A stretch of DNA of 64,000 nucleotides, taken from assembly GCF_007164525.1 (NCBI RefSeq), contig NZ_AP019791.1:2095501-2159500 (forward strand), given 5' to 3'. The notes under the pieces were generated by a model, which saw only the letters and a list, made by a program, of their open reading frames with translations, was not told the origin of the DNA and made no database searches. This document shows positions 1-16,026 of this stretch, piece after piece. This DNA is from Rubrobacter xylanophilus (GTDB lineage: Bacteria; Actinomycetota; Rubrobacteria; Rubrobacterales; Rubrobacteraceae). Position numbers and translations under genes: made by a program. Position 1 is the first letter of the stretch, and the number at the start of each line of letters is the position of its first letter.

Positions 1-1
1 G

Positions 2-316
2 GAGCCCGGGGATGCGGCCGGGCGCAAGCTCCTCAGGAGCGTCTTCGTCAAGGGGATGACCGGCGCGATCATGGAGGCGCTCGAGGCCGGACGGGCTGCG
101 GGCTGCGAGGAGTGGCTGTGGGGCAACATCGTCTCCGAGCTCACGGGAGCGGACGAGGCGCTCGCCCGGAGGCTCGTGGAGGGGAGCTACAGACACGCCC
201 GGCGCCGTGCCGACGAGATGGCGGCGGCGGAGGAGCTCCTTAGGGAGCTGGGTGTTGAGCCGCGCATCACCGGGGCGGCGAAGGCCCGGCTGCGGGAGCT
301 CGCGGCGGAGAGCTAA
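2..316 (+). CDS. NAD(P)-binding dehydrogenase, DUF1932 C-terminal part (5' truncated)
   Basis: The frame is open from base 2, so the N-terminus lies outside the window. The visible 104 residues are an alanine- and glutamate-rich helical domain with a GRKLLRSVFVKGM segment and a conserved Trp pair (EEWLW). This resembles the DUF1932 domain that follows the Rossmann domain in 6-phosphogluconate or hydroxyisobutyrate dehydrogenase-like proteins. The Rossmann part and its glycine motif cannot be seen, so the substrate is unknown. The gene ends tail-to-tail with the ATPase gene on the other strand and the two stop codons share four bases. The family call is from the look of the domain only. Confidence 0.6.
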   Translation, partial: EPGDAAGRKLLRSVFVKGMTGAIMEALEAGRAAGCEEWLWGNIVSELTGADEALARRLVEGSYRHARRRADEMAAAEELLRELGVEPRITGAAKARLRELAAES

Positions 317-1023
317 ACCCCCAGGTACTGCTGCTGCACCTGCCGGTTGGAGAGGAGGGCCTCCGGGCTGCCCCGCCAGACTATCCGTCCCTTGTTCATC
401 ACCAGGACCTCGTCCGCCACGCTGCAGGCCAGCGAAACGTGCTGCTCGACCAGCAGGATGGAGAGCCCGGCCTCCTTCAGGCGGTGGATCGCCTCTCCGA
501 CCCGTTCGATGACCACCGGGGCGAGGCCCTCGGAGGGCTCGTCCATCAGCAGGAGGCGGGGGTTGGTCATCAGGGCCCGGGCTATGGCCAGCATCTGCTG
601 CTCCCCGCCGGAGAGCTGGTTCCCCATGTTGGAGGCCCGCTCGCGCAGCGCGGGGAACAGCTCGTAGACCCTGCTCAGATCCCAGGGGGGGTTCTCCCCG
701 TCGCCCGAGGGGCCGCCGCGGCTGGCGACGGTCAGGTTCTCCTCCACCGTGAGGGAGGGGAAGACGCGCCTCCCCTGCGGGACGAGCCCGATGCCCATCC
801 GGGCGATCCTGTGGGGCCGCTCGCCGGAGATCTCCCGGCCCATGAAGCGGATGCTCCCGCTGCGGAGCGGGACGAGCCCGGCGATGGAGTGGATGGTGGT
901 GGTCTTCCCGGCTCCGTTGCGCCCGAGGAGCACCGCGCAGCTTCTCTCCGGGACGGAGAAAGAGAGGCCCTGCAGGATGTGGCTCGTGCCGTAGTAGGTG
1001 TGGACTCCTTCCAGCTCAAGCAT
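313..1023 (-). CDS. livF: HAAT-family ABC transporter ATP-binding protein, LivF type
   Basis: This is a 236-residue cytoplasmic ATPase of the branched-chain amino acid (HAAT) uptake family. Walker A GRNGAGKTT is near residue 34, the signature LSGGEQQM near 138 and Walker B LLLMDEP near 158, followed by an H-loop histidine in VEQHVSLA. Length and motif order match LivF. The start overlaps the end of the LivG-type gene by eight bases, and the gene is the last of a five-gene transporter operon. The transported compound may not be an amino acid, because the operon is led by a LigM-like demethylase gene. Confidence 0.93.
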   Translation of the reverse strand: MLELEGVHTYYGTSHILQGLSFSVPERSCAVLLGRNGAGKTTTIHSIAGLVPLRSGSIRFMGREISGERPHRIARMGIGLVPQGRRVFPSLTVEENLTVASRGGPSGDGENPPWDLSRVYELFPALRERASNMGNQLSGGEQQMLAIARALMTNPRLLLMDEPSEGLAPVVIERVGEAIHRLKEAGLSILLVEQHVSLACSVADEVLVMNKGRIVWRGSPEALLSNRQVQQQYLGV

Positions 1024-1771
1024 GGGGCCTCGCTCCCCCGCTGAAGTAGATCTCCCTCACCTGCTCGTCGCCGCGCACCCGCTCCGGTGGGCCGCTCAGA
1101 AAGACTTCGCCGTGGTGCAGGACCGTGATGTGCTCGGCCACGGAGAAGACCACGTCCATGTCGTGCTCGATGATCAGGAGCGCCACGGAGCGGGGCAGGT
1201 TCTTTATCAAGGAGGCGGCGCGGGATGTCTCCACCGGGGACATCCCGGAGGTCGGCTCGTCCAGAAGCAGTATCCGCGGCCGCGAGGCCAGCGCGAGGAT
1301 GATCTCGAGCATCCTCTGCTCCCCGTAGGAGAGCTCGCCGACCTTCCGCTCACGGCGGGACCAGAGCCCCCACTCCTCCAAGAGCTCCCGCGTCTCCCGG
1401 CGCAGGTCCTCGTGCCAGGGGAGCGGCCGCCAGAGCCGGAACCGGTACGGCTTGCGCGCCAGGACTGCAAGGTGGAGGTTCTCCTCCACGGTGAGCCGGT
1501 CGAACAGGTTGGTCTTCTGGAAGGTGCAGGCCAGGCCCAGGGAGACCCGGGAGTGGACGGGCAGGTTCGTCACGTCCTTCCCGTCGAGGGTCACGGAACC
1601 GCTGTCGGCGGGGAGAAGGCCGGTTATGCACTTGAAGACCGTGGTCTTCCCCGCGCCGTTCGGGCCTATGATGACGTGCCGTTGCCCAGGCTGCACCGCG
1701 AACGAGACGTCGTTGAGCACCCGCAGCCCGTCGTAGGACTTGCCAAGCCCCTCCACCGCGAGCAGGCTCAC
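1016..1771 (-). CDS. livG: HAAT-family ABC transporter ATP-binding protein, LivG type
   Basis: This 251-residue second ATPase pairs with the LivF-type subunit. Walker A GPNGAGKTT lies near residue 37, the signature reads LSYGEQRM (Tyr in place of Gly, usual in LivG), and Walker B LLLDEPTSGM is near residue 170. An insertion between Walker A and the signature (ARKPYRFRLWRPLPW) is typical of LivG. It begins with GTG inside a GTGA overlap with the permease stop codon, which indicates translational coupling. Confidence 0.93.
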   Translation of the reverse strand: MSLLAVEGLGKSYDGLRVLNDVSFAVQPGQRHVIIGPNGAGKTTVFKCITGLLPADSGSVTLDGKDVTNLPVHSRVSLGLACTFQKTNLFDRLTVEENLHLAVLARKPYRFRLWRPLPWHEDLRRETRELLEEWGLWSRRERKVGELSYGEQRMLEIILALASRPRILLLDEPTSGMSPVETSRAASLIKNLPRSVALLIIEHDMDVVFSVAEHITVLHHGEVFLSGPPERVRGDEQVREIYFSGGARPHA

Positions 1772-2796
1772 GGCGTTCTCTCCCTGGCAGATTCGGCCGC
1801 CGGCTCCTCCGGAGCGGGCTCTTCCTCCTCATCGCGCCGCGGCGACCGGGAGGCGGAAAGCCGCCGCCACGCGGCCTGCAACAGGTGGACGATCCCGCCC
1901 CTCCCCAGGAGGACGAAGAAGATGAAGATCAGCCCCATGATAAACGCCCAGTACTCGGTGTAGAAGCTCACGTAGTTGCGCACGATGATGAAGAAGGCCG
2001 CTCCGACGGCCGGGCCCAGCAGGGTGCCGGTGCCGCCCACGATCACCATGATCAGAGCCTGCCCGGAGAACACCCAGCCGAGCAGGTCCGGGGTGACGTA
2101 CAGGTTGAAGTAGGAGTACAGGGCCCCGGCGAAGCCGGCGACGCCACCGGCGAGGGTGTAGACGAAGAGCTTGTAGGAGAAGGTGTTGTAGCCCAGGGCC
2201 TTCATCCGGAGCTCGTTCTCCATGATCCCCTTCACCACCCTCCCGGCGGGCGAGGAGACGAAGATCCTCAGCAGCACGTAGCACACGAGGAAGGCCCCGC
2301 CCATCAGGTAGTAGAGGCCGAGCTCGCCGGAGATCTCGCCGAACCCCAGGTCCGGTACGACCGCGACCCCCATCCCGTCGCTGCCGCCGGTCACGGACTC
2401 GGCCTGAAAGGCCACGGCGAAGAGAACCTGGGCGAAGGCCAGCGTGAGCATCAGGAAGTACGCCCCCGTGGACCGGAAGAAGAGCGCCCCCGAGACGCAG
2501 GCCAGCAGCGCCGCCACGGCCACCGCGGCGGCCACCAGCACGTAGGTGTTGGAGATACGCTCTCCCAGCAGCGCCACGGTGTAGGCCCCGGCCCCGAAGA
2601 AGGCCGCGTGCCCCAGGGAGACCAGCCCGGCGTAGCCGATGATCAGGCCCAGGCTCATGGCGAAGATGGCCATCACGTAGATCTCGGTGGCTATGCCGAT
2701 CCCGAAGCCGGGCAGCGCCAGCGGCAGGAGCAGGACCAGCAGCGCGAGGGCCGCCACGCCTGGCCAGGGAACCCGCCTGCCGGAGAGCCGCGTCAA
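1768..2796 (-). CDS. livM: HAAT-family ABC transporter permease, LivM type
   Basis: This is a polytopic inner-membrane permease of about 342 residues with roughly nine hydrophobic segments and the LivM motif GYAGLVSLGHAAFFGAGAY near the N-terminus. I place the start at the TTG that overlaps the stop of the upstream permease (TTGA at 2793-2796). The frame runs further upstream, but that part is arginine-rich and antisense to livH. The C-terminus is a charged tail rich in Glu and Arg. It should form the membrane channel with the LivH-type subunit. Confidence 0.9.
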   Translation of the reverse strand: MTRLSGRRVPWPGVAALALLVLLLPLALPGFGIGIATEIYVMAIFAMSLGLIIGYAGLVSLGHAAFFGAGAYTVALLGERISNTYVLVAAAVAVAALLACVSGALFFRSTGAYFLMLTLAFAQVLFAVAFQAESVTGGSDGMGVAVVPDLGFGEISGELGLYYLMGGAFLVCYVLLRIFVSSPAGRVVKGIMENELRMKALGYNTFSYKLFVYTLAGGVAGFAGALYSYFNLYVTPDLLGWVFSGQALIMVIVGGTGTLLGPAVGAAFFIIVRNYVSFYTEYWAFIMGLIFIFFVLLGRGGIVHLLQAAWRRLSASRSPRRDEEEEPAPEEPAAESARERTP

Positions 2797-3662
2797 GCCG
2801 CGGGGCTCCTTCCGAACAGGCCGGCCGGGCGGACCAGCAACACCCCGGCCATGAGCAGGAACACGATCACCAGCGACAGTGAGGGGAAGTAGGCCTGGCC
2901 GAAGATCTCGACCATCCCCACGAGGATCCCGCCGACGAACGCCCCCTTCCAGGTGCCGAGCCCTCCCAGGACGACCACGATCAGGGAGAGCACGAGGATC
3001 TCGAAGCCCATGTCCGGGTACATCCCGAGCACGGGTCCCCCGAGCACGCCTCCGAGCCCGGCGAGCGCCGCTCCGAAGGCGAAGACCCCGGTGAAGACGA
3101 GCGTCACGTTGATGCCCAGGGCGGCGACCATCTGGCGGTCGTCCACCCCCGCGCGGATGATCGCGCCGATGCGGGTGCGGGACTCCAGGTACCACAGCAG
3201 GACGGCCAGCAGACACCCCACCAGCACGACCACGAGCCGGTAGGCGGGGAAGGTGACGCCCCCCAGACTCACCGAGAAGTCCACCAGGGCGGGGGTGGGC
3301 AGGGACTGCAGCCTGTTGCCCCAGATCATCTTGATGATGTCCGCGATGATGAACGCGAGCCCGAAGGTCAGGAGCACCTGCCCCAGCTCGTCGCCGTAGG
3401 AGCGGAAAAGCAGGACCCGCTCGACGAACGTCCCCAGCACCGCCATGGCGAGCATGGCCACGACCAGCGCCACCAGGAAGTTCGCCCCGGCCCCGAGCAC
3501 CGAGAACGCCACGTAGGCCCCCACCACGAAGAAGACCCCGTGCGCCAGGTTGACGATCCCCATGAGCCCGAAGATCACCGAGAGCCCCACGGAGATCATG
3601 AAGAGCAGCATCCCGTAGGTGAGGCCCGCCAAGACCTGCACGGCCACCGCGGAGAGGTCCAC
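2793..3662 (-). CDS. livH: HAAT-family ABC transporter permease, LivH type
   Basis: This 289-residue permease has about eight hydrophobic segments and the LivH hallmark GLMGIVNLAHGVFFVVGAY near residues 33-51. GTG is the start, preceded by a strong purine-rich ribosome site (GGGAGGGAGG). It sits between the substrate-binding protein gene and the LivM-type gene with almost no spacing. The family carries branched-chain amino acids, amides, urea or aromatic acids, so sequence alone does not settle the substrate. Confidence 0.92.
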   Translation of the reverse strand: MDLSAVAVQVLAGLTYGMLLFMISVGLSVIFGLMGIVNLAHGVFFVVGAYVAFSVLGAGANFLVALVVAMLAMAVLGTFVERVLLFRSYGDELGQVLLTFGLAFIIADIIKMIWGNRLQSLPTPALVDFSVSLGGVTFPAYRLVVVLVGCLLAVLLWYLESRTRIGAIIRAGVDDRQMVAALGINVTLVFTGVFAFGAALAGLGGVLGGPVLGMYPDMGFEILVLSLIVVVLGGLGTWKGAFVGGILVGMVEIFGQAYFPSLSLVIVFLLMAGVLLVRPAGLFGRSPAA

Positions 3663-3680
3663 CGGCCGCCTCCCTCCCGC

Positions 3681-4928
3681 CTAGCCTCCGGTCGGGTTGT
3701 AGCCCTCGGGCGGCTCGGCGGGCATCCCCACGTCCTCTATGGTGTCGATTATCCTGACGTCCATGCTCCCGCCCTCCCGGACGTTCTCCCCGACGTAGTA
3801 GTTCTGGACCGGGTTGTTGGTCTCGGGGTCTATGGTGAAGGAGCCGCGCGGGCTGTCGATCGAGATGCCCCGGAGCACCTCGATCAGGGCGTCCGGCTCG
3901 GTGCCGCCCGCCTCCTCGACGGCCCTGGCGATGACGTTTCCGGTATCGTAGCCCTGACAGGCTATGGTGTCGGGGGACTGGTCGTACTCGTTGCGGTACG
4001 CCTCCACGAAGCGCTGGTTGGTCTCGTTCTCCAGGTTTGGATAGTAGAACGAGACCGCCATCACGCCCTCCGCCGCCTCCCCGGCCGGGTCGGTCACGGT
4101 CGGGCTGGCCAGCTGGTCGTGGCCTATGAGCGGGATCTCCCCCTTGAGCCCGAAGCTGTCGTACTGCTGGATGAAGCGGATGGCGTCGGTGCCCGAGAGG
4201 AAGCTGAAGACCACCTCGGGTTCGGCCCTGCGTATGTTGGTGAGGTAGGTGGCGAAGTCCGCGGTCCCGGGGGCCGAGAAGGCGCTCCCCACGACCTCAC
4301 CGCCGGCCTCCTGGTAGGCGAGCCTGAAGGCCTCTATGACCTCGTAGCCCGCCACGTAGTCCATCCCGATGGCGAAGGCGCGCTTGCCTATGTTCTCGAA
4401 GATGTAGGGCGCACCCGCAGCGCCGAGCTGGTAGTTGGACTGGGAGACCCGGTAGGAGTAGTCGCTCTTCTGCCCCCACGAGAGGTCGTTGGCCGCCGCG
4501 TTGGAGTTGATGAGGATGATGCGGTCCCGCTGCAGCCGGTTGGCGAGCGCGAGCGCCTCGGTGGAGATGACGGGCCCCATGAGGAAGTCCACGGCGTTCT
4601 GGCCGGTGAGCTGCCGGTAGACGCGCAGCGCGACCTGCGGATCGCCCTCGCTGTCCTCGTAGCGGACTTCCACCTCGCGGCCCCCGATCTGGTTGTCGTT
4701 GAGCCGGAGGAAGGTCTCCATCCCGTTGCGGATGCTCTCCCCAAGGGTGGCGTACGGACCGGAGAGGGTGAGCAGCGCCCCTATCCTGATGGGCCCGCTC
4801 TCCCCCCCTCCCTGACCTCCGCCACCACCCCCACCGCAGCCGGCGACGCCGAGCATCATCGCCCCGGCGAGCCCGCCCCCGGCGAGCTTGAGGAAGTCGC
4901 GCCGCCCGATCTTTCTGCTGTACCCCAC
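3681..4928 (-). CDS. Tat-exported lipoprotein, HAAT substrate-binding protein
   Basis: This 415-residue periplasmic-binding-protein type I (LivJ-like) protein supplies the ABC transporter encoded downstream. A twin-arginine motif (RRDFLK, residues 9-14) precedes a hydrophobic stretch and the lipobox VAGC with Cys31, then a glycine-rich linker. It is therefore probably folded before export and anchored by lipid. The mature part has the family's IRIGALLTLSGPYATLG start and an extended GRDVEVRYED-like strand (here GREVEVRYED). I chose GTG 4928 because AAGGAGGAG lies three bases upstream; the longer frame has no such site. The ligand is unknown. Confidence 0.9.
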   Translation of the reverse strand: MGYSRKIGRRDFLKLAGGGLAGAMMLGVAGCGGGGGGGQGGGESGPIRIGALLTLSGPYATLGESIRNGMETFLRLNDNQIGGREVEVRYEDSEGDPQVALRVYRQLTGQNAVDFLMGPVISTEALALANRLQRDRIILINSNAAANDLSWGQKSDYSYRVSQSNYQLGAAGAPYIFENIGKRAFAIGMDYVAGYEVIEAFRLAYQEAGGEVVGSAFSAPGTADFATYLTNIRRAEPEVVFSFLSGTDAIRFIQQYDSFGLKGEIPLIGHDQLASPTVTDPAGEAAEGVMAVSFYYPNLENETNQRFVEAYRNEYDQSPDTIACQGYDTGNVIARAVEEAGGTEPDALIEVLRGISIDSPRGSFTIDPETNNPVQNYYVGENVREGGSMDVRIIDTIEDVGMPAEPPEGYNPTGG

Positions 4929-4954
4929 GAACTCCTCCTTTCCCCGTCTTCTCC

Positions 4955-6346
4955 CTAGGCCCCCCGGTAGGCGGTGCGGGCGAACTCCACCAGCGGAGCG
5001 GGCTGCACGGTGGCCCTTATCTCCACCTGCCGGTGCTCCTCGACCTGCGGTTTGGAGCTGTTGGGCTCCTCGCCCCACAAGAGCACCACCTCGCTGCCGG
5101 GCTCGGCGACCTCCTCGTCCACCACCGCCAAGGACAGCATCGACCGCTCGTTGTGGCTGTAGCCGCAGTAGGTGGAGATCCCGACGGTCCTATCCCCGCT
5201 GAGCACCCGGTCGTACTGGTGCATCGCATACCAGGAAGAGGGGAGGTCTATGTACTTGGCGGGGAGCCCCTCCCGCTCGAAGAGGGAGGCGAAGACCTCC
5301 TTTACGTCCTCCCCCTCCCACACCAGCGTCACCTTCCTGCGGTGCGGCCCCTCGGCCATCTCCTCCAGCGCCTCCCGACCCACAAAGTCGTGGTCGAACT
5401 TCACGAAGCGCCCGTAGCCGAGCTCGTAGGGGGTGAGGTAGTAGTCCTCTATCCTCTCCGAGTAGAAGCTCCCGCCGAGGGAAGCCATGGCCTCATAACC
5501 GTTTGCGGGGAGCCACTCCCTGTAGGGCTTCATCTCATCCCCGGTGTAGATGGCGGGCAGCGGGCAGGGGATCCAGCCGGACTCCGTGGTCGCCGTCTGG
5601 TAGGCGAGGGCCCCGACCTGCCTGAGGCCGTGGTTTTTCCCGACCTCGAGGATCCTGCCCACCACCTCCTCCCGCTCCTCCCAGGGACCGGAGAGCTCGT
5701 AGCCGGGCCTGCCGGCCATCCCGTGCCTGAGCGCCCGCACCCTACACCCCCCGATGCGCACGTCGGCGGTGTTGAAGAACTTGACCTCCGGCAGCTCCCC
5801 CTCCACCACCTCCTGCATGAGGGAGAGCGCCTGGGGGCCCTGAACCTGGTAGCGGTAGACCTTCGGCGGCCCCTGCCTCACCGCCGAGTTCTCGTCGACC
5901 TCGAACGCCACGTCGTGGCCGCCGACCTCCGCCCGGTACCGCACCCAGTTGAGCACCGCCGGACGCCCCACGAGATCCAGCCTGTTCTCCTCCAGGTAGT
6001 AGAGGATCACATCGCCTATGACGTAGCCGTCGGGGTTGCAGGCCACAAACTGCTTGGCCTTGTCGGGAGCGAAGCCCTCGAAGCTGTTGACCCCCAAAGA
6101 AGAGAGCAGCTCCACCGCATCGGGCCCCTCCACGTAGAGGTCGGTCATGTGGTGGGACTGGTCCAGCAGCGCACAGCCCTCCCGCCACGCCCGCTGCTCG
6201 TCCCGCCAGTTGCTGAACTCCGCCGGAACCACCGGAAACGGCCGCCGCCCGGCCTGAGAGTTGTACAACAACGCCACCGGACTCCCCGCCCGCGAGATCG
6301 CCTCCTCCAGACTCCCCCTGCCATCGCTGCTCCAGCCCGTAGCCAC
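4955..6346 (-). CDS. GcvT-fold tetrahydrofolate-dependent methyltransferase/demethylase, LigM-like
   Basis: This protein of about 463 residues has the aminomethyltransferase (GcvT) fold. It has the early segment LLDQSHHMTDLYVEGPDA, the DKAKQFVACNPDGYVIGD region, and a C-terminal GcvT barrel with the VGISTYCGYSHNERSMLSLA stretch. It is about 100 residues longer than ordinary GcvT or DmdA and close in length to the tetrahydrofolate-dependent O-demethylases LigM and DesA. The family moves a methyl group from an aryl ether or an amine to tetrahydrofolate in the cytoplasm. GTG 6346 is preferred because AGGAGGAGG precedes it; an upstream TTG at 6382 has no such site. It heads the transporter operon, suggesting its substrate is what that system imports. 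The exact substrate is inference. Confidence 0.75.
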   Translation of the reverse strand: MATGWSSDGRGSLEEAISRAGSPVALLYNSQAGRRPFPVVPAEFSNWRDEQRAWREGCALLDQSHHMTDLYVEGPDAVELLSSLGVNSFEGFAPDKAKQFVACNPDGYVIGDVILYYLEENRLDLVGRPAVLNWVRYRAEVGGHDVAFEVDENSAVRQGPPKVYRYQVQGPQALSLMQEVVEGELPEVKFFNTADVRIGGCRVRALRHGMAGRPGYELSGPWEEREEVVGRILEVGKNHGLRQVGALAYQTATTESGWIPCPLPAIYTGDEMKPYREWLPANGYEAMASLGGSFYSERIEDYYLTPYELGYGRFVKFDHDFVGREALEEMAEGPHRRKVTLVWEGEDVKEVFASLFEREGLPAKYIDLPSSWYAMHQYDRVLSGDRTVGISTYCGYSHNERSMLSLAVVDEEVAEPGSEVVLLWGEEPNSSKPQVEEHRQVEIRATVQPAPLVEFARTAYRGA

Positions 6347-6396
6347 CCCCGATAAACCTCCTCCTGCTCGACTCTTCCACAATGCCGCCGCAGGTA

Positions 6397-6426
6397 AGTC
6401 TAGAGCACCTCCAACAATATTGTCAA
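6397..6426 (-). promoter_or_regulatory. Promoter of the LigM-like/transporter operon with embedded operator
   Basis: On the minus strand TTGACA (6426-6421) and TAGACT (6402-6397) are separated by 18 bases and lie about 50 bases before the GTG start. The -35 box is part of the inverted repeat ATTGT-TG-ACAAT (6419-6430), which overlaps a second palindrome, ACAATATTGT (6414-6423). TTGT/ACAA arms are typical of GntR-family operators, so a repressor that blocks the -35 box is likely. No regulator gene is adjacent. Confidence 0.6.
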
Positions 6427-6471
6427 CAATTTTGATGACCTCGAAACCGGCTCTGGGAGCCAGAATTCTGC

Positions 6472-6500
6472 GGGGCCGGAGAGCCTCCCTCTCCGGCCCC
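6472..6500 (-). terminator. GC-rich hairpin after the ferredoxin gene
   Basis: A 12-bp perfect stem (GGGGCCGGAGAG with its complement) and a 5-base loop lie 28 bases past the ferredoxin stop codon. There is no U-tract, so it may terminate inefficiently or mainly protect the 3' end. It separates the ferredoxin transcript from the promoter of the next operon. Confidence 0.55.
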
Positions 6501-6527
6501 GGGTGTTTCGGTGGGGTGTGGTGTGGA

Positions 6528-6896
6528 TCAGGAGCCCGGTTTTTCGACCCACTCGGGTTCGGGTGTGATCTCCGGCTTCGGTTTGGGGCCGGGGCCGTCG
6601 AGTCCGGTGGAGGAGACGGTCATGAGCACCCGGACCTTCATGTCGTGGTCGCAGAGCACCTGGCAGGAGAGCCGCACCTGACCGAGGAGGTTGCGCTTCT
6701 TCAGGACCTCGAGCTCGGCTTTGGTCATCTTCTCAGGCTCGCCCTCCAGAAACTCGACCCGGCAGGTCGTGCACTTGGCGTAGGAGCCGCAGCGGTGCAG
6801 GATGTCCACCCCCGCGTCCTCCTCTATGGCCAGGACGAGCCGCTTGCCCTCCTCGACGTCGAAGACCCCCGCTCCCTCGACCTCCAGCCTGGGCAT
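6528..6896 (-). CDS. [2Fe-2S] ferredoxin
   Basis: This 122-residue small electron carrier has a plant-type cluster site: Cys36, Cys42 and Cys45 (C-x5-C-x2-C), with a distal Cys78 and an extra Cys82. The start is ATG 6896, set by GGAGGAGG five bases upstream. The C-terminal 25 residues are Pro- and Glu-rich and probably disordered. It lies directly upstream of the LigM-like operon but has its own hairpin terminator, so it is a separate unit. Its partner oxidoreductase is not in the window. Confidence 0.88.
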   Translation of the reverse strand: MPRLEVEGAGVFDVEEGKRLVLAIEEDAGVDILHRCGSYAKCTTCRVEFLEGEPEKMTKAELEVLKKRNLLGQVRLSCQVLCDHDMKVRVLMTVSSTGLDGPGPKPKPEITPEPEWVEKPGS

Positions 6897-7075
6897 CAAT
6901 ACCTCCTCCGTGTTGCAAAGCCCTCCAGAAACTGAGACAAACATAGCTTACCGCACCGCAAGCGTCGAAGATGAGAACTTTCTAATCCCGCTATAACCCT
7001 TCCTTAACCCCGCCGGGCGAAGATATATTTCGCGTCAGAAGCGGCTCGAGAGTACAGAGGAGAGAGAAGGACCCT

Positions 7076-11172: not shown

Positions 11173-12372
11173 CTACGTCGCTCTCCGCCGGCGGCTCGCC
11201 ACCGCGTCTATCGTGGCGGCGACGAGCAGCACCGCCCCGGTCACCATAAACTTTATCGAGGAGTCGAACGCCAGCAGGTCCATCCCGTTGGAGATCGAAC
11301 CTATGACCAGCGCCCCGAGCAGCGCCGACCAGACCGACCCCCGACCCCCCATGAGGCTCGTCCCGGCGATGACCGGCCCGGCGATGGCGTTGAGGAGGAT
11401 GTCCCCACTGCCGGAGGACTGGTTGACGGCCAGAAGCCGCGAGGCGGCCAGTATCCCGCCCGCCGCCGCGAGCGCCGAGCAGAGGGTGAAGGCGGCCACC
11501 CGTACCCGCTCGACCTTTATCCCGGCGCGCCGGGCGGCCTCAGCGTTGCCCCCGATGGCGTACAGGTAGCGCCCGAAGCGGGTCTTCTTCGTGATCAGGT
11601 GGAAGACCACCACGAAGCCCAGGAAGATGACGACCGCCAGTGGAAGCCCCCGGTCGGCGTTGAGCACGGCAACACCGGCCAGCACCGCCGCCGCCACCGC
11701 AACCACCCGGACGACCGCCGGAGCGAGCGGCCGCTCGAGACCGGCGGCGAGCTCCCTCCTGCGGCCAGAGAAGACGGCTGCGGCGTAGGCGGCTATCACG
11801 GCGGCCGCGGCGGCCCATCCCACAAGCGGCGGGAAGAAGGTCCCGGCGAGCCCGGTGATGATCGGGTCGCGCAGGTTTATGGTCCCCGTGTCGCCCAACA
11901 CGTAGAGCAGAGCCCCCTGGAAACCCAGAAGCCCGGCCAGCGTCACCACCAGCGAGTGCACCCCGAAACGGGTCACGACGAAACCGTTGAACGCCCCGAT
12001 CGCGAGCCCCACCAGGATGCCGCAGAGGATCGCCAGTATTGCGGGGAGCCCCGCCTTCACGCTCAGCACGGCCATCACCCCGGCAGCGAAGCCGCTCACC
12101 GAGCCCACCGAGAGGTCTATCTCGCCGAGCAGCAGCACGAGCACTATGCCCACGGAGATGGTGCCGACCGCGGCGATCTGGAGCATCATGTTCGTCAGGT
12201 TGACCGGGGAGAGAAAGCGAGGGTTGGCGACGGTGAAGATGGTCCAGATGGCGGCAAGCCCGACGAGCACCGGGAGCGGACCGTAGGCCCCCGGCCCGAG
12301 CCGGCCGAAGAGCCCGGTCCTGCTTCTCTCGGCTTCGGCGGTAGTGGTCTTTCTTCCTCCGGCCGCGGTCAT
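11173..12372 (-). CDS. xylH: Xylose-type sugar ABC transporter permease
   Basis: This 399-residue permease of the ribose/xylose (CUT2) family has about ten hydrophobic segments. The family motif GEIDLSVGSVSGF is near residue 85 and the loop that meets the ATPase (GGNAEAARRAGIKVERVRV) is near 275. Length matches XylH rather than the shorter RbsC. The start overlaps the ATPase stop (ATGA). It follows xylF- and xylG-like genes and a ROK regulator, which supports xylose or a related pentose as substrate. Confidence 0.87.
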   Translation of the reverse strand: MTAAGGRKTTTAEAERSRTGLFGRLGPGAYGPLPVLVGLAAIWTIFTVANPRFLSPVNLTNMMLQIAAVGTISVGIVLVLLLGEIDLSVGSVSGFAAGVMAVLSVKAGLPAILAILCGILVGLAIGAFNGFVVTRFGVHSLVVTLAGLLGFQGALLYVLGDTGTINLRDPIITGLAGTFFPPLVGWAAAAAVIAAYAAAVFSGRRRELAAGLERPLAPAVVRVVAVAAAVLAGVAVLNADRGLPLAVVIFLGFVVVFHLITKKTRFGRYLYAIGGNAEAARRAGIKVERVRVAAFTLCSALAAAGGILAASRLLAVNQSSGSGDILLNAIAGPVIAGTSLMGGRGSVWSALLGALVIGSISNGMDLLAFDSSIKFMVTGAVLLVAATIDAVASRRRRAT

Positions 12373-13163
12373 CCCGCATCCTCCTCCTCTCGGGTGCCGA
12401 ACTCGGCGCCGGTGATGGCGGCGACCACCTCCTCCTGGGTGGCGTCCCGGACGTCGAAGTCCCTCACCCGCCGCCCCAGGCGGAGCACGACGATCCGGTC
12501 GGTCACCTCGAAGACGTCGGCGAGGTTGTGGCTGATGACCACCACCCCGAGCCCGCGCTCCCGGAGGCGCCGGATGAGGGCGAGGACCTGCCGGGTCTGG
12601 GCGACGCCCAGAGCGGCGGTGGGCTCGTCCAGCAACACGACCTTCGGCTCGCCGAGCAGCGAGCGGGCTATGGCCACCGACTGCCGCTGGCCGCCGGAGA
12701 GGGCGGCCACCGGGGTGCGGACGCTCCGGATGGTGGTCACCGAGAGGGAGTCCAGGAGCTCCAGCGAACGCCGCTCCATGGAGGGCTCGTCCATCCAGCG
12801 CACCGCTCTTCCAGGACCGTCCAGCAGGCTCTCACGCCCGAGAAAGAGGTTGGCGACCACGTCCAGGTTGTCGCAGAGGGCGAGGTCCTGGTAGACGGTG
12901 GCGATGCCGAGGTTGCTGGCGTCCTGCGGACCGTTTATCTCCACACTGCGGCCCTCGAAGAGGATCTCCCCCTCGTCGGCCCGGTAGCTGCCGGAGATGA
13001 TCTTGACGAGCGTGGACTTGCCGGCCCCGTTGTCCCCGACGAGCCCCACCACCTCACCGGCGTGGACTTCGAAGTCCACGCCGGTGAGCGCCCGCACGGC
13101 ACCGAAGCTCTTGCTCACGCCCCTGAGGGCCAGCAGAGGGGCCCCATCCTGCCGCGTCGCCAT
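12369..13163 (-). CDS. xylG: Xylose-type sugar ABC transporter ATP-binding protein (single domain)
   Basis: This 264-residue ATPase has Walker [10 protein letters not shown] near residue 42, signature [15 protein letters not shown] near 150 and Walker [13 protein letters not shown] near 170. It has one nucleotide-binding domain, half the size of Escherichia coli XylG, so it probably acts as a homodimer with the permease. It starts two bases after the stop of the substrate-binding protein and overlaps the permease start. Single-domain versions are common for this family in actinobacteria. Confidence 0.87.
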
Positions 13164-13165
13164 CG

Positions 13166-14251
13166 CTACTCGACGAGCCCGGCCTCGCGGCAGGCGTCCT
13201 CGAATTCGGGGGTGCAGATCTCATCCACCGTCCAGAACTCGTCCGCGACGATGGTCTCCTCGATGTTGTCCTTCGTCACAACGACGGGCTTCAGGAGGAC
13301 CGAAGGCACCTCTTCCCGGCCGTTGTCCACGCCGGTGGTCTCGAGATCCCGCGGCAGCTCGCCGGTTCTCAGGAGCGAGACGGCCATCTCCGCCGCCGTG
13401 GTGGCCTCCTCGCGGATGGCCTTGTAGACGGTCATCCCCTGCGTTCCGGCGAGGATGCGCTGCACGGCGGCCAGCTCGGCGTCCTGCCCCGTCGTGGGCG
13501 GGATCTCCTGGAAGCCCGCCGCCCTCATCGCGGCGATGGCACCGCCCGCGGTGCCGTCGTTGGCCGCGTAGACGCCGTCTATGTTGTCGCGGCCGAGGCG
13601 GGTTATGGCCTGATCCATCTGACGCTGGGCGGCGTCGGGGCTCCAGTCGGGGGTGTCGTACTCGGCCCCGATCTCGATGCCGCTCGGGTCTATGACGCTG
13701 TGGGCGCCGCGCTTGAAGAGGGCGGCGTTGGGGTCGGTGGGGGAGCCGTTTATCATGACGATGGTGCCCCCCTCGGGGACGTTCTCGACGATCCACTGCC
13801 CCTGCAGCCGGCCGACCCGCTCGTTGTCGAAGGAGATGTAGCCGTCGAGGTCGGCGTTCTGGACGAGCCGGTCGTAGCTGAGCACCGGGATGTCGCTCTG
13901 CTTGGCCCGCTCGACGATGGCGGAGGCGGCCTCGGCGTCGACGGGGTCGAGCACCAGCACCTCGGCCCCGTTGGTGATCGCCGCCTCGGCCTGCTGCTGC
14001 TGCTTGGCGGCGTCCTGATCGGCGTTGGAGTAGAGGATCTCGCAGTCCGGGCACAGCTTCTTGACCGCCTGGGTGAAGATGGGCCGGTCGTGCCGCTCGT
14101 AGCGCGTGGTCTTGGACTCCGGGAGCAGCAGGGCTATCTTGCCTCCTCCCTCTTCCCCGCCGCCCTGACCGCCGCCGGTGCCGCAGGCGGCCAGCGCCGC
14201 GGCCAGTCCGAGGATCAGCGCCACGGACAGGATCCTCGCTGCTCTGCTCAT
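13166..14251 (-). CDS. xylF: Xylose-binding lipoprotein of ABC transporter
   Basis: The 361-residue protein has an N-terminal signal and lipobox (LAACG, Cys near residue 22), a Gly/Glu linker and a periplasmic-binding fold. Strong XylF-like segments are LSYDRLVQNADLDGYISFDN, NGSPTDPNAALFKRG and SGQDAD-like TGQDAELAAVQRILAGTQ with TVYKAI. It captures the sugar outside the membrane and delivers it to the permease. ATG 14251 is preceded by AAAGGAGAGG. It overlaps the ROK regulator's stop by four bases, so all four genes form one operon. Confidence 0.88.
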   Translation of the reverse strand: MSRAARILSVALILGLAAALAACGTGGGQGGGEEGGGKIALLLPESKTTRYERHDRPIFTQAVKKLCPDCEILYSNADQDAAKQQQQAEAAITNGAEVLVLDPVDAEAASAIVERAKQSDIPVLSYDRLVQNADLDGYISFDNERVGRLQGQWIVENVPEGGTIVMINGSPTDPNAALFKRGAHSVIDPSGIEIGAEYDTPDWSPDAAQRQMDQAITRLGRDNIDGVYAANDGTAGGAIAAMRAAGFQEIPPTTGQDAELAAVQRILAGTQGMTVYKAIREEATTAAEMAVSLLRTGELPRDLETTGVDNGREEVPSVLLKPVVVTKDNIEETIVADEFWTVDEICTPEFEDACREAGLVE

Positions 14252-15465
14252 CTGTTCGCCTCTCCTTTCGTCGTTCTCTCCGTAACTCCTTTCGGCTTCC
14301 CGCCGCGCGGCGGGGCCACGAAGCTGTCGGTCTCGCGCAGGACGAGCGCAACCCCCCCAAGGACGGTGGCCCTCGCCCCGAGCTGCCCAGGGACAACCTC
14401 GGCGGTGGCGGCGACGGGGAGCGCGCAGCGCCCGAGCGAGGCCCGCAAGGGACCGAGCAGCACCTCGCCGGCCCCACTGAGCTCGCCGTTTATGATGACC
14501 CGCTCGGGGTTGAAGAGGTTGCACAGGTTGGCAACCGCGATGCCGATGAGCCTGCCGGCGTCCTCGATCGCGCGCCGGCAGGCGGCATCCCCCTCCGCGG
14601 CGAGCCGCAGCATTCGCCCGACGGTGAGGTCCGGGCCGCGGCTGGGGCGCAGGAGCTCGAGCACGGCCGGCACCCCGGCGAGCATCTCCAAACAACCCCG
14701 GTTGCCGCAGCGGCAGATGGGCCCGTACTCGTCCATGACGGTGTGCCCGATCTCGCCGGCCGTCCCCATCGCCCCCCTGTAGAGACGCCCGTCGACGATG
14801 AGCCCCGCCCCGATGCCGTCGGAGACCACTACGCAGGCAGCATCCCTGCTCCCCCTGCCCGCCCCCCAGACGAGCTCGGCCAGAGCGGCGAGGTTGGCGT
14901 CGTTCTCCACGTACACCGGGAGCCGCAGGCGCCGCCGGAGCTCCTCCACCGGGCGCACCTCTCCCCAGCTCGGGGCGAGGCTGGAAGGGTGGATCCTGCC
15001 GGTCCCCGCCTCGAAGGGCGCGGGTAGCCCCACCCCGACCCCCACCACGCTCCCCCACCGCACCCCGGCCTCCTCCAAGACCTCCCGGACCAGCTCCGCC
15101 ACGAGATCCAGGGTCGTCGAAGGACCGTGGTCGAGCGGCAGATCCCGCCCCACCTCCGCCAGTACCTCGTGCGAGAGGTTCGCCACGGCCACCAGCACCC
15201 GCCGGTGCCCCACGTCCACCCCCACCACCACCCCGGCCTCCGGGTTGAGGCTCACCAGCACCCCGGGACGCCCCACCTGATGCCGCCTGCCGGAAGCCTC
15301 ATCTCCCTCGACCGCAAGCCCCTCGGAGATGAGCTCCCCCACGATCGTGGACACCATAGAACGCGAGAGCCCCGAAAGCCGCGCCAGATCCGCCCGCGTC
15401 AGAGGCCCCTTCTCCCGCAGAAGCTCCACCACCTGCTTCCTGCTGCCGCCCGAAACCCTCACCAT
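14248..15465 (-). CDS. ROK-family transcriptional regulator, XylR-like
   Basis: The protein of about 405 residues has an N-terminal winged helix (VELLREKGPLTRADLARLSGLSRSMVSTIVGELISEG, written here in parts: helix-turn-helix around residues 10-55) and a ROK sugar-kinase-like domain. The ROK zinc motif CRCGNRGCLE is near residue 255 and the sugar-site motif GEIGHTV just before it. I chose ATG 15465 because the promoter at 15493-15522 puts the transcript start near 15486; longer frames would begin before it. It leads the xylFGH operon and probably represses it until xylose binds. Confidence 0.85.
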   Translation of the reverse strand: MVRVSGGSRKQVVELLREKGPLTRADLARLSGLSRSMVSTIVGELISEGLAVEGDEASGRRHQVGRPGVLVSLNPEAGVVVGVDVGHRRVLVAVANLSHEVLAEVGRDLPLDHGPSTTLDLVAELVREVLEEAGVRWGSVVGVGVGLPAPFEAGTGRIHPSSLAPSWGEVRPVEELRRRLRLPVYVENDANLAALAELVWGAGRGSRDAACVVVSDGIGAGLIVDGRLYRGAMGTAGEIGHTVMDEYGPICRCGNRGCLEMLAGVPAVLELLRPSRGPDLTVGRMLRLAAEGDAACRRAIEDAGRLIGIAVANLCNLFNPERVIINGELSGAGEVLLGPLRASLGRCALPVAATAEVVPGQLGARATVLGGVALVLRETDSFVAPPRGGKPKGVTERTTKGEANR

Positions 15466-15492
15466 CCCCACACCCGCTCGCTCAATACCCGC

Positions 15493-15522
15493 AGCATACC
15501 GCCCACACGAGAGATTTGTCAA
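15493..15522 (-). promoter_or_regulatory. Promoter of the ROK-xylFGH operon
   Basis: On the minus strand TTGACA (15522-15517) and TATGCT (15498-15493) are separated by 18 bases, close to consensus. The predicted transcript starts about 20 bases before ATG 15465. Confidence 0.65.
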
Positions 15523-15536
15523 CTCATTGCACAAAA
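15514..15536. promoter_or_regulatory. Possible ROK operator overlapping the -35 box
   Basis: The stretch has imperfect inverted arms ATTTGTCAA and TTGCACAAAAT around a 4-5 base AT-rich centre. The left arm contains the -35 box of the xyl operon, so binding there would block the promoter. Autoregulation by the ROK protein is inferred from position. Confidence 0.4.
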
Positions 15537-15642
15537 TACCGATTTCAAAGCGCGTTTTTGTTCATTCATCCGTCAAACTCTTGGGGGGAAGTCGGGCCGG
15601 CGGGGCTGCAAGGAGGCCGGGCATAAACTAAACTCTCTGACC

Positions 15643-16026
15643 ATGAGCAAGGAGGCGAACAACGCGGGGCAGGGGCCGCCCTCGGTAAAGGTAGACAAGC
15701 CCTGGGGCAGGTTCGAGCAGTACACCCACAACCTCCCCTGCACGGTAAAGATCATCACGGTGGCTCCGGGAGGGACCCTCTCCCGCCAGTACCACTACAA
15801 GCGCGACGAGCTTTGGGTGGTGCTGGATCCCGGAGCGCGGGTAGAGCTGGACGACCGGGTTCTCCACCCGGAGCCGGAGGAGAAGATCTTCATCCCGCGC
15901 CAGACGGTCCACCGGCTCTCCTGCGAGGGCGAGAAGCCGGTTCGAATCCTGGAGATATCCTTTGGCGAGTTCGACGAGGAGGACATCGTCCGGCTGGAGG
16001 ACGTCTACGGCCGGGTTGGTCCGTAG
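15643..16026 (+). CDS. Cupin, mannose-6-phosphate isomerase type II-like
   Basis: The 127-residue single cupin matches the C-terminal domain of type II phosphomannose isomerase/GDP-mannose pyrophosphorylase: KPWGRFEQYT near the start, the metal-site segment GGTLSRQYHYKRDELWVVL, and the second cupin motif with His in VHRLSCEG. It lacks the nucleotidyltransferase domain, so it is probably a sugar-phosphate isomerase or binding protein. There is no ribosome site next to ATG 15643. TAAACT ends eight bases upstream, so the mRNA may be leaderless. Confidence 0.72.
   Translation: MSKEANNAGQGPPSVKVDKPWGRFEQYTHNLPCTVKIITVAPGGTLSRQYHYKRDELWVVLDPGARVELDDRVLHPEPEEKIFIPRQTVHRLSCEGEKPVRILEISFGEFDEEDIVRLEDVYGRVGP

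Follow-up and report, generated by a model that had tools for sequence, protein, structure and literature searches.

A predicted import-and-demethylate operon for methoxylated aromatic acids in Rubrobacter xylanophilus and its candidate GntR-type operator

Lignin use is limited by the O-demethylation step, and little is known about importers of methoxylated aromatic acids. The single elements treated below each have precedents, namely folate O-demethylases, HAAT-type importers of aromatic compounds, and control of syringate genes by a GntR repressor, VanR2 of Pseudomonas NGC7 (PMC12314914). The same source describes Sphingobium SYK-6 ligM and desA as controlled by the MarR-type DesR and the IclR-type DesX. 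HAAT receptors bind a variety of hydrophobic ligands; few of the Rhodopseudomonas palustris proteins with a branched-chain-binder annotation do bind such amino acids, and RPA0668 binds benzoate and 4-hydroxybenzoate (PMC3223731). The methyl-transferring tyrosine and DesA-like enzymes in Rubrobacter metagenome-assembled genomes (MAGs) are already covered in PMC9296663, so the presence of such an enzyme in Rubrobacter is not new. A search of the open-licence literature did not find the combination in one operon, an operator common to demethylation, C1 and ring-cleavage operons, or a third enzyme clade.

The window, meaning the whole 64,000-nucleotide stretch that was analysed, belongs to a closed genome of 3,022,875 bp. 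Positions 313-6426 of the window, on the minus strand, make up a predicted operon of a LigM-family gene, a receptor gene, livH, livM, livG and livF, in that order. We have good confidence, from computed gene identities, gene order, operator recurrence and conservation, that this operon serves as an import-and-demethylate module for a lignin-derived methoxylated benzoate, with GntR-FCD control. The features are as follows.

1-316, plus strand: 3' end of a DUF1932/6-phosphogluconate-dehydrogenase-like gene, the last of the ring-cleavage operon (profiles)
313-1023, minus strand: LivF-type ATPase (profiles)
1016-1771, minus strand: LivG-type ATPase (profiles)
1768-2796, minus strand: LivM-type permease, whose TTG start overlaps the LivH TGA (profiles)
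2793-3662, minus strand: LivH-type permease (profiles)
3681-4928, minus strand: HAAT-type substrate-binding receptor, a predicted Tat-exported lipoprotein, aromatic-acid-like (profiles, structure matches)
4955-6346, minus strand: predicted THF-dependent aryl O-demethylase of the LigM/DesA family (LigM_a), 463 aa, GTG start (profiles, tree)
6397-6426, minus strand: sigma-70-type promoter, TTGACA-18-TAGACT (promoter scan)
6415-6434, minus strand: operator dyad CAAAATTGT-TG-ACAATATTG with core ATTGTTGACAAT at 6419-6430, over the -35 box (kept upstream of the orthologs in loci L030 and L036)
6471-6501, minus strand: 13-bp GC hairpin between the ferredoxin gene and the operon, with no T run (z = -3.6)
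11784-15817 of locus L009, just outside the window and convergent with livF: ring-cleavage operon of a DUF6282 gene, GalB-like and GalC/LigK-like genes, an extradiol dioxygenase gene at 14076-15041 and the DUF1932 gene

The sequence-only reading had described a LigM-type enzyme, a Tat lipoprotein receptor and LivHMGF in this order, which stands, but its range of 1016-6426 missed LivF at 313-1023. Its single promoter ahead of the operon was recovered at 6426-6397; 8 kb contained 2 promoter-like sites, whereas shuffled sequences would give 0.5, and the -10 box is kept as TCTAGACT/TCTAAACT in L030 and L036. The GTG start of LigM_a at 6346 is preceded by a Shine-Dalgarno sequence, AGGAGGAGG, which makes the longer reading frame from a TTG at 6382 less likely. 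The receptor gene, with a GTG start and AGGAGGAG, follows after a gap of 26 bp and encodes a signal, RRDFLKLAGGG...VAGC, that combines a twin-arginine motif with a lipobox; the genes after it overlap or almost touch. The operon thus contains a receptor, two permeases and two ATPases, the full set of a HAAT ABC importer.

Beyond the hairpin, which is probably the end of the ferredoxin transcript, lies a 2Fe-2S ferredoxin gene (6528-6944, minus strand). We did not count it as a member of the operon because the hairpin stands between them and because outside the genus it is not found beside the demethylase. Its counterpart in the same-genus comparison genome (G001, 3,225,748 bp; loci L030 and L031) is 98% identical, whereas the neighbouring demethylase is only 86% identical. 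A megablast of plasmids returned generic ABC matches only.

From its sequence, LigM_a is assigned to the folate-dependent aryl O-demethylases of the LigM/DesA family. It matched the LigM structures with a phmmer E value of 4e-146 over nearly the full length, compared to 7e-18 for GcvT, and is 50% identical to LigM and 54-57% identical to DesA-grade proteins. The NCBIfam models gave 661 bits for DesA, 556 for LigM, 96 for GcvT, 58 for SoxA and 48 for DmdA, which places the protein under both equivalog cut-offs (580 bits for LigM, NF047885; 800 bits for DesA, NF047633); DesA-grade sphingomonad proteins score 834-909 bits with the DesA model. A maximum-likelihood tree nests LigM_a among the aryl O-demethylases and separates it from four GcvT-type proteins that the genome also encodes. 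Its nearest company is Rubrobacter paralog b together with Klenkia and Agromyces proteins, in a clade that lies beside the LigM and DesA clades and in neither, the deeper branching within the family being weakly supported. On this evidence we regard the clade as a third, actinobacterial one, neither LigM nor DesA. Because LigM_a is below the equivalog cut-offs and in a clade of its own, its substrate is not readable from orthology. The catalytic tyrosine of LigM is kept in LigM_a and in every LigM/DesA-type row of the alignment, whereas the four GcvT-type proteins have Arg, Met, Phe or Cys there, and the LigM arginine is also kept in LigM_a; we take these residues to be Y247 and R122 in LigM numbering. 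The proposal of a LigM-like enzyme thus held up, since both the tree and the scores put the protein with LigM/DesA rather than among the aminomethyltransferases.

The genome has three demethylase paralogs, a (4955-6346, LigM_a), b (L009 4130-5488) and c (L010 5396-6766). R122 is replaced by His or Trp in paralog b and in proteins of Klenkia and Agromyces (L101, L108), often beside a LigM-type copy, hinting that this subclass may have a different substrate. A further LigM-related paralog of 429 aa (L011 6337-7626) has Ala at the catalytic Tyr position, and the region around it has a lower GC content, 61.6%. Within a genome, the three paralogs (in the window, L009 and L010, and again in L030, L031 and L032) are 92-99% identical in alignment columns of about 280-365 and 395-464, while the same columns are only 85-90% identical when orthologs from the two Rubrobacter genomes are compared; in columns 190-270, the identity of paralogs a and b of G001 reaches 99.6%. 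Such a pattern suggests concerted evolution by recurrent, separate gene conversion that would have left some segments distinct.

The ring-cleavage operon bears on the choice of substrate. Its GalB-like hydratase matches 4-oxalomesaconate hydratase with E = 2.5e-62, and both the GalC/LigK-like aldolase and the extradiol dioxygenase, of the catechol-2,3-dioxygenase, VOC type, are over their cut-offs; no match to a LigB-family dioxygenase, the canonical type II ring opener, was obtained across the genome. Past this operon lie genes for an intradiol dioxygenase, for a GntR-FCD regulator at L009 5557-6327, for demethylase b and for a 193-aa orphan protein. In Acidobacteria, Chelativorans, Agromyces, Armatimonadetes and Solirubrobacteraceae, demethylase genes are likewise accompanied by the same extradiol dioxygenase, by GalB/GalC or by both, so the pairing is no accident of this genome. 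In each of the six genomes of the family that bear demethylases, the 193-aa protein (L009 3519-4097, minus strand here) is encoded beside one of these genes, and a small number of further Actinobacteria have remote copies. The protein has no Pfam or NCBIfam match, relaxing the Pfam search to E = 10 brought no helpful match, and its predicted structure has a pLDDT of 37; it is possibly an isomerase of the ring-cleavage route, and an MgaD-like SnoaL isomerase would be our guess.

Syringate or its product 3-O-methylgallate is the most likely substrate, with vanillate as the next candidate. We favour the former because the ring-cleavage neighbour is of the gallate type and because paralog c, which clears the LigM cut-off of 580 bits with a score of 632.8 and is encoded alongside fhs, fchA, folD and pobA, would be a better vanillate candidate than LigM_a. 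The same two observations weigh against a vanillate-only operon, in which LigM_a would be a functional LigM converting vanillate to protocatechuate, the receptor would import vanillate or 4-hydroxybenzoate, and the convergent GalB/GalC genes would serve another substrate. That reading, which we hold to be unlikely but deserving of serious attention, agrees with the retention of R122 in LigM_a, with the presence of two intradiol-type genes at 849 kb in addition to the neighbour of paralog b, and with the binding of hydroxybenzoates by R. palustris receptors (PMC3223731).

The preferred reading, a module for a methoxylated benzoate of the syringate type, draws further on the operator. In its extended form the dyad reads CAANATTGT-TG-ACAATNTTG, with the -35 box inside, and its 12-mer occurs once in the 64 kb compared to 0.02 expected. 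A whole-genome search placed the operator upstream of demethylases a and b, of the fhs-fchA-folD-c operon, of metF, of the ring-cleavage operon and of a CoA/side-chain operon (CoA-ligase, enoyl-CoA-hydratase, SDR, MFS and acyl-CoA-dehydrogenase genes), with two additional one-mismatch sites at 2,050,027 and 2,051,594; a control search with the reversed pattern found zero sites in this genome. In total, 22 promoters from 6 genomes align. Agromyces (L108) has two sites, one of them exact, compared to 0.02 expected; they adjoin a GntR gene and lie upstream of a HAAT operon that diverges from a b-type demethylase gene. A common dyad upstream of the member operons and a GntR-FCD gene in the cluster were both found, as in a GntR-FCD regulon, and the protein encoded just upstream of demethylase b is likely the repressor acting at the dyad.

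Two of the partner operons have features of their own. In L057 (4423-8472), the metF gene with the operator upstream, in a genome with three MTHFR matches, is followed by a split PEP-synthase-like pair of 611 aa and 364 aa. This pair, which could be a phenol-phosphorylating enzyme, occurs close to demethylase a in L036 as well. The CoA/side-chain operon (L058 7439-13267) has an exact operator site, and in the relative G014 it adjoins demethylase b, with folate genes in the same cluster; this placement suggests a role in phenylpropanoid side-chain shortening.

The receptor points in the same direction. Its best solved match is 4zpj, and in sequence and profile comparisons it scored 164 bits with 4evq, 137 with 4ey3, 131 with 4f06 and 124 with 4evs, compared to 50-51 with LivK/LBP. 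We take 4evq to be RPA0668 and the other three to be aromatic-acid receptors of R. palustris, so that the closest ligand-annotated solved relatives would be benzoate-type binders rather than leucine binders. The other HAAT receptor of the genome, used as a control, reversed the order, with 82-98 bits for amino-acid receptors and 42 for 4evq. The idea, raised in the sequence-only reading, that the receptor might bind an aromatic acid is thereby strengthened.

Conservation bears on whether importer and enzyme work together. The whole arrangement is identical in order in the second Rubrobacter genome (L030/L031), and in L035 (G022) a demethylase gene, an orphan gene, a receptor gene and LivHMGF face the ring-cleavage operon. 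Of the 6 demethylase-bearing genomes, 4 have a receptor ortholog of at least 64% identity, as against 0 of 55 others, one genome with a partial demethylase match being counted among the latter (Fisher p = 3e-5, an optimistic value because related genomes are not independent). Two relatives (L033 and L034) keep demethylases and the ring-cleavage operon without the HAAT genes there, so the pathway does not depend on the importer. This absence would also suit an importer for something unrelated, such as an amino acid, urea or an amide, that is a mere neighbour of the demethylase gene, as would the matches of the LivHMGF components to urea and branched-chain models, all of which are below cut-off. 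We think such an importer quite improbable given the 26-bp gap, the single promoter and operator, the conserved order and the co-occurrence just described, the likeness of the receptor to benzoate binders, and the Agromyces operator site that immediately precedes a HAAT operon.

Finally, that LigM_a is an N-demethylase or an ordinary GcvT-type protein acting on dimethylglycine, sarcosine or betaine is barely credible. The shared GCV_T fold (Pfam 155 bits) and the several GcvT/dimethylglycine-type proteins encoded elsewhere in the genome would suit it, but scores far under the respective cut-offs (DmdA 48/410, GcvT 96/300, SoxA-type 58/1164 bits), the tree and the tyrosine missing from GcvT-type proteins place it with the aryl O-demethylases, and no amine-oxidation genes were found in the demethylase operon or the convergent ring-cleavage operon. 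Of the earlier proposal that a methoxylated or N-methylated compound is imported and demethylated, the methoxylated aromatic half is retained, on the enzyme, the receptor and the operator link to C1-folate and ring-cleavage genes, and the N-methylated half is dropped, the context being aromatic throughout.

In the import-and-demethylate module, the Tat lipoprotein receptor would capture the aromatic acid on the outer side of the membrane, for LivHMGF to bring in at the expense of ATP. LigM_a would then move the O-methyl group onto tetrahydrofolate, and the resulting 5-methyl-THF would be oxidised via MetF and the FolD/FchA/Fhs set. The demethylated ring would pass to the convergent operon, where the extradiol dioxygenase followed by GalB and GalC would yield pyruvate and oxaloacetate; in the vanillate case, it would instead enter the protocatechuate ortho-pathway. 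The GntR-FCD repressor probably occupies the dyad over the -35 box and the dyads of the partner operons until an aromatic effector frees the DNA. We infer the substrate, the direction of transport, the repressor and the effector from this context.

More tentatively, and with somewhat less than even confidence, we propose an undescribed actinobacterial regulon for syringyl lignin. Third-clade folate O-demethylases, including an R122-to-His specificity class, would feed gallate/3-O-methylgallate fission by a type I (VOC-fold) extradiol dioxygenase that replaces LigAB/DesB; the DUF6282 protein, the DUF1932 dehydrogenase and the 193-aa orphan would act between ring opening and GalB/GalC; and one GntR operator and a dedicated HAAT importer would complete the set. 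On the main reading, the locus would provide a demethylase of a thermophilic soil bacterium with its own ATP-driven importer and a DNA switch that marks the pathway operons, including three demethylases and an unusual ring-opening cluster. A vague 'DesA-like' annotation would become a defined gene set with one candidate regulator, and thermostable parts would be on offer for lignin bioconversion.

Compared with the syringate pathway of Pseudomonas NGC7 (VanA1B1, MgaABCD, GalBCD), as set out in the available text of PMC12314914, the locus shares GntR-type control and downstream GalB and GalC. The Pseudomonas demethylase is of the oxygenase type with formaldehyde as by-product, unlike the folate transfer predicted here; that text names no VOC-type extradiol dioxygenase, and the VanR2 (GntR) site is GGGATCCC as opposed to ATTGTTGACAAT here. 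With the aromatic-acid binding proteins of R. palustris (RPA0668/hbaE and relatives), our receptor has in common the HAAT-type receptor fold, at a distant homology of 124-164 bits; hbaE is tied to benzoate and 4-hydroxybenzoate CoA-ligation genes, not to an O-demethylase (PMC3223731). The DesA-like aminomethyltransferases of Rubrobacter and Solirubrobacterales MAGs match LigM_a in family, bacterial group and tyrosine, but the word 'transporter' is absent from the main text of PMC9296663, and no operator regulon or clustered ring-cleavage genes were found in its available text. DesA, the sphingomonad syringate O-demethylase, gives the best NCBIfam score, whereas LigM_a is below its 800-bit cut-off and outside its clade, on the actinobacterial branch. 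LigM of Sphingobium SYK-6, the vanillate/3-O-methylgallate O-demethylase (PDB 5x1i, 5tl4), shares with LigM_a homology over the whole length, the tyrosine and R122, and the single-subunit THF-dependent design; LigM_a differs in belonging to another clade, in scoring under the LigM cut-off, and in its association with a HAAT importer and with a GntR-type operator.
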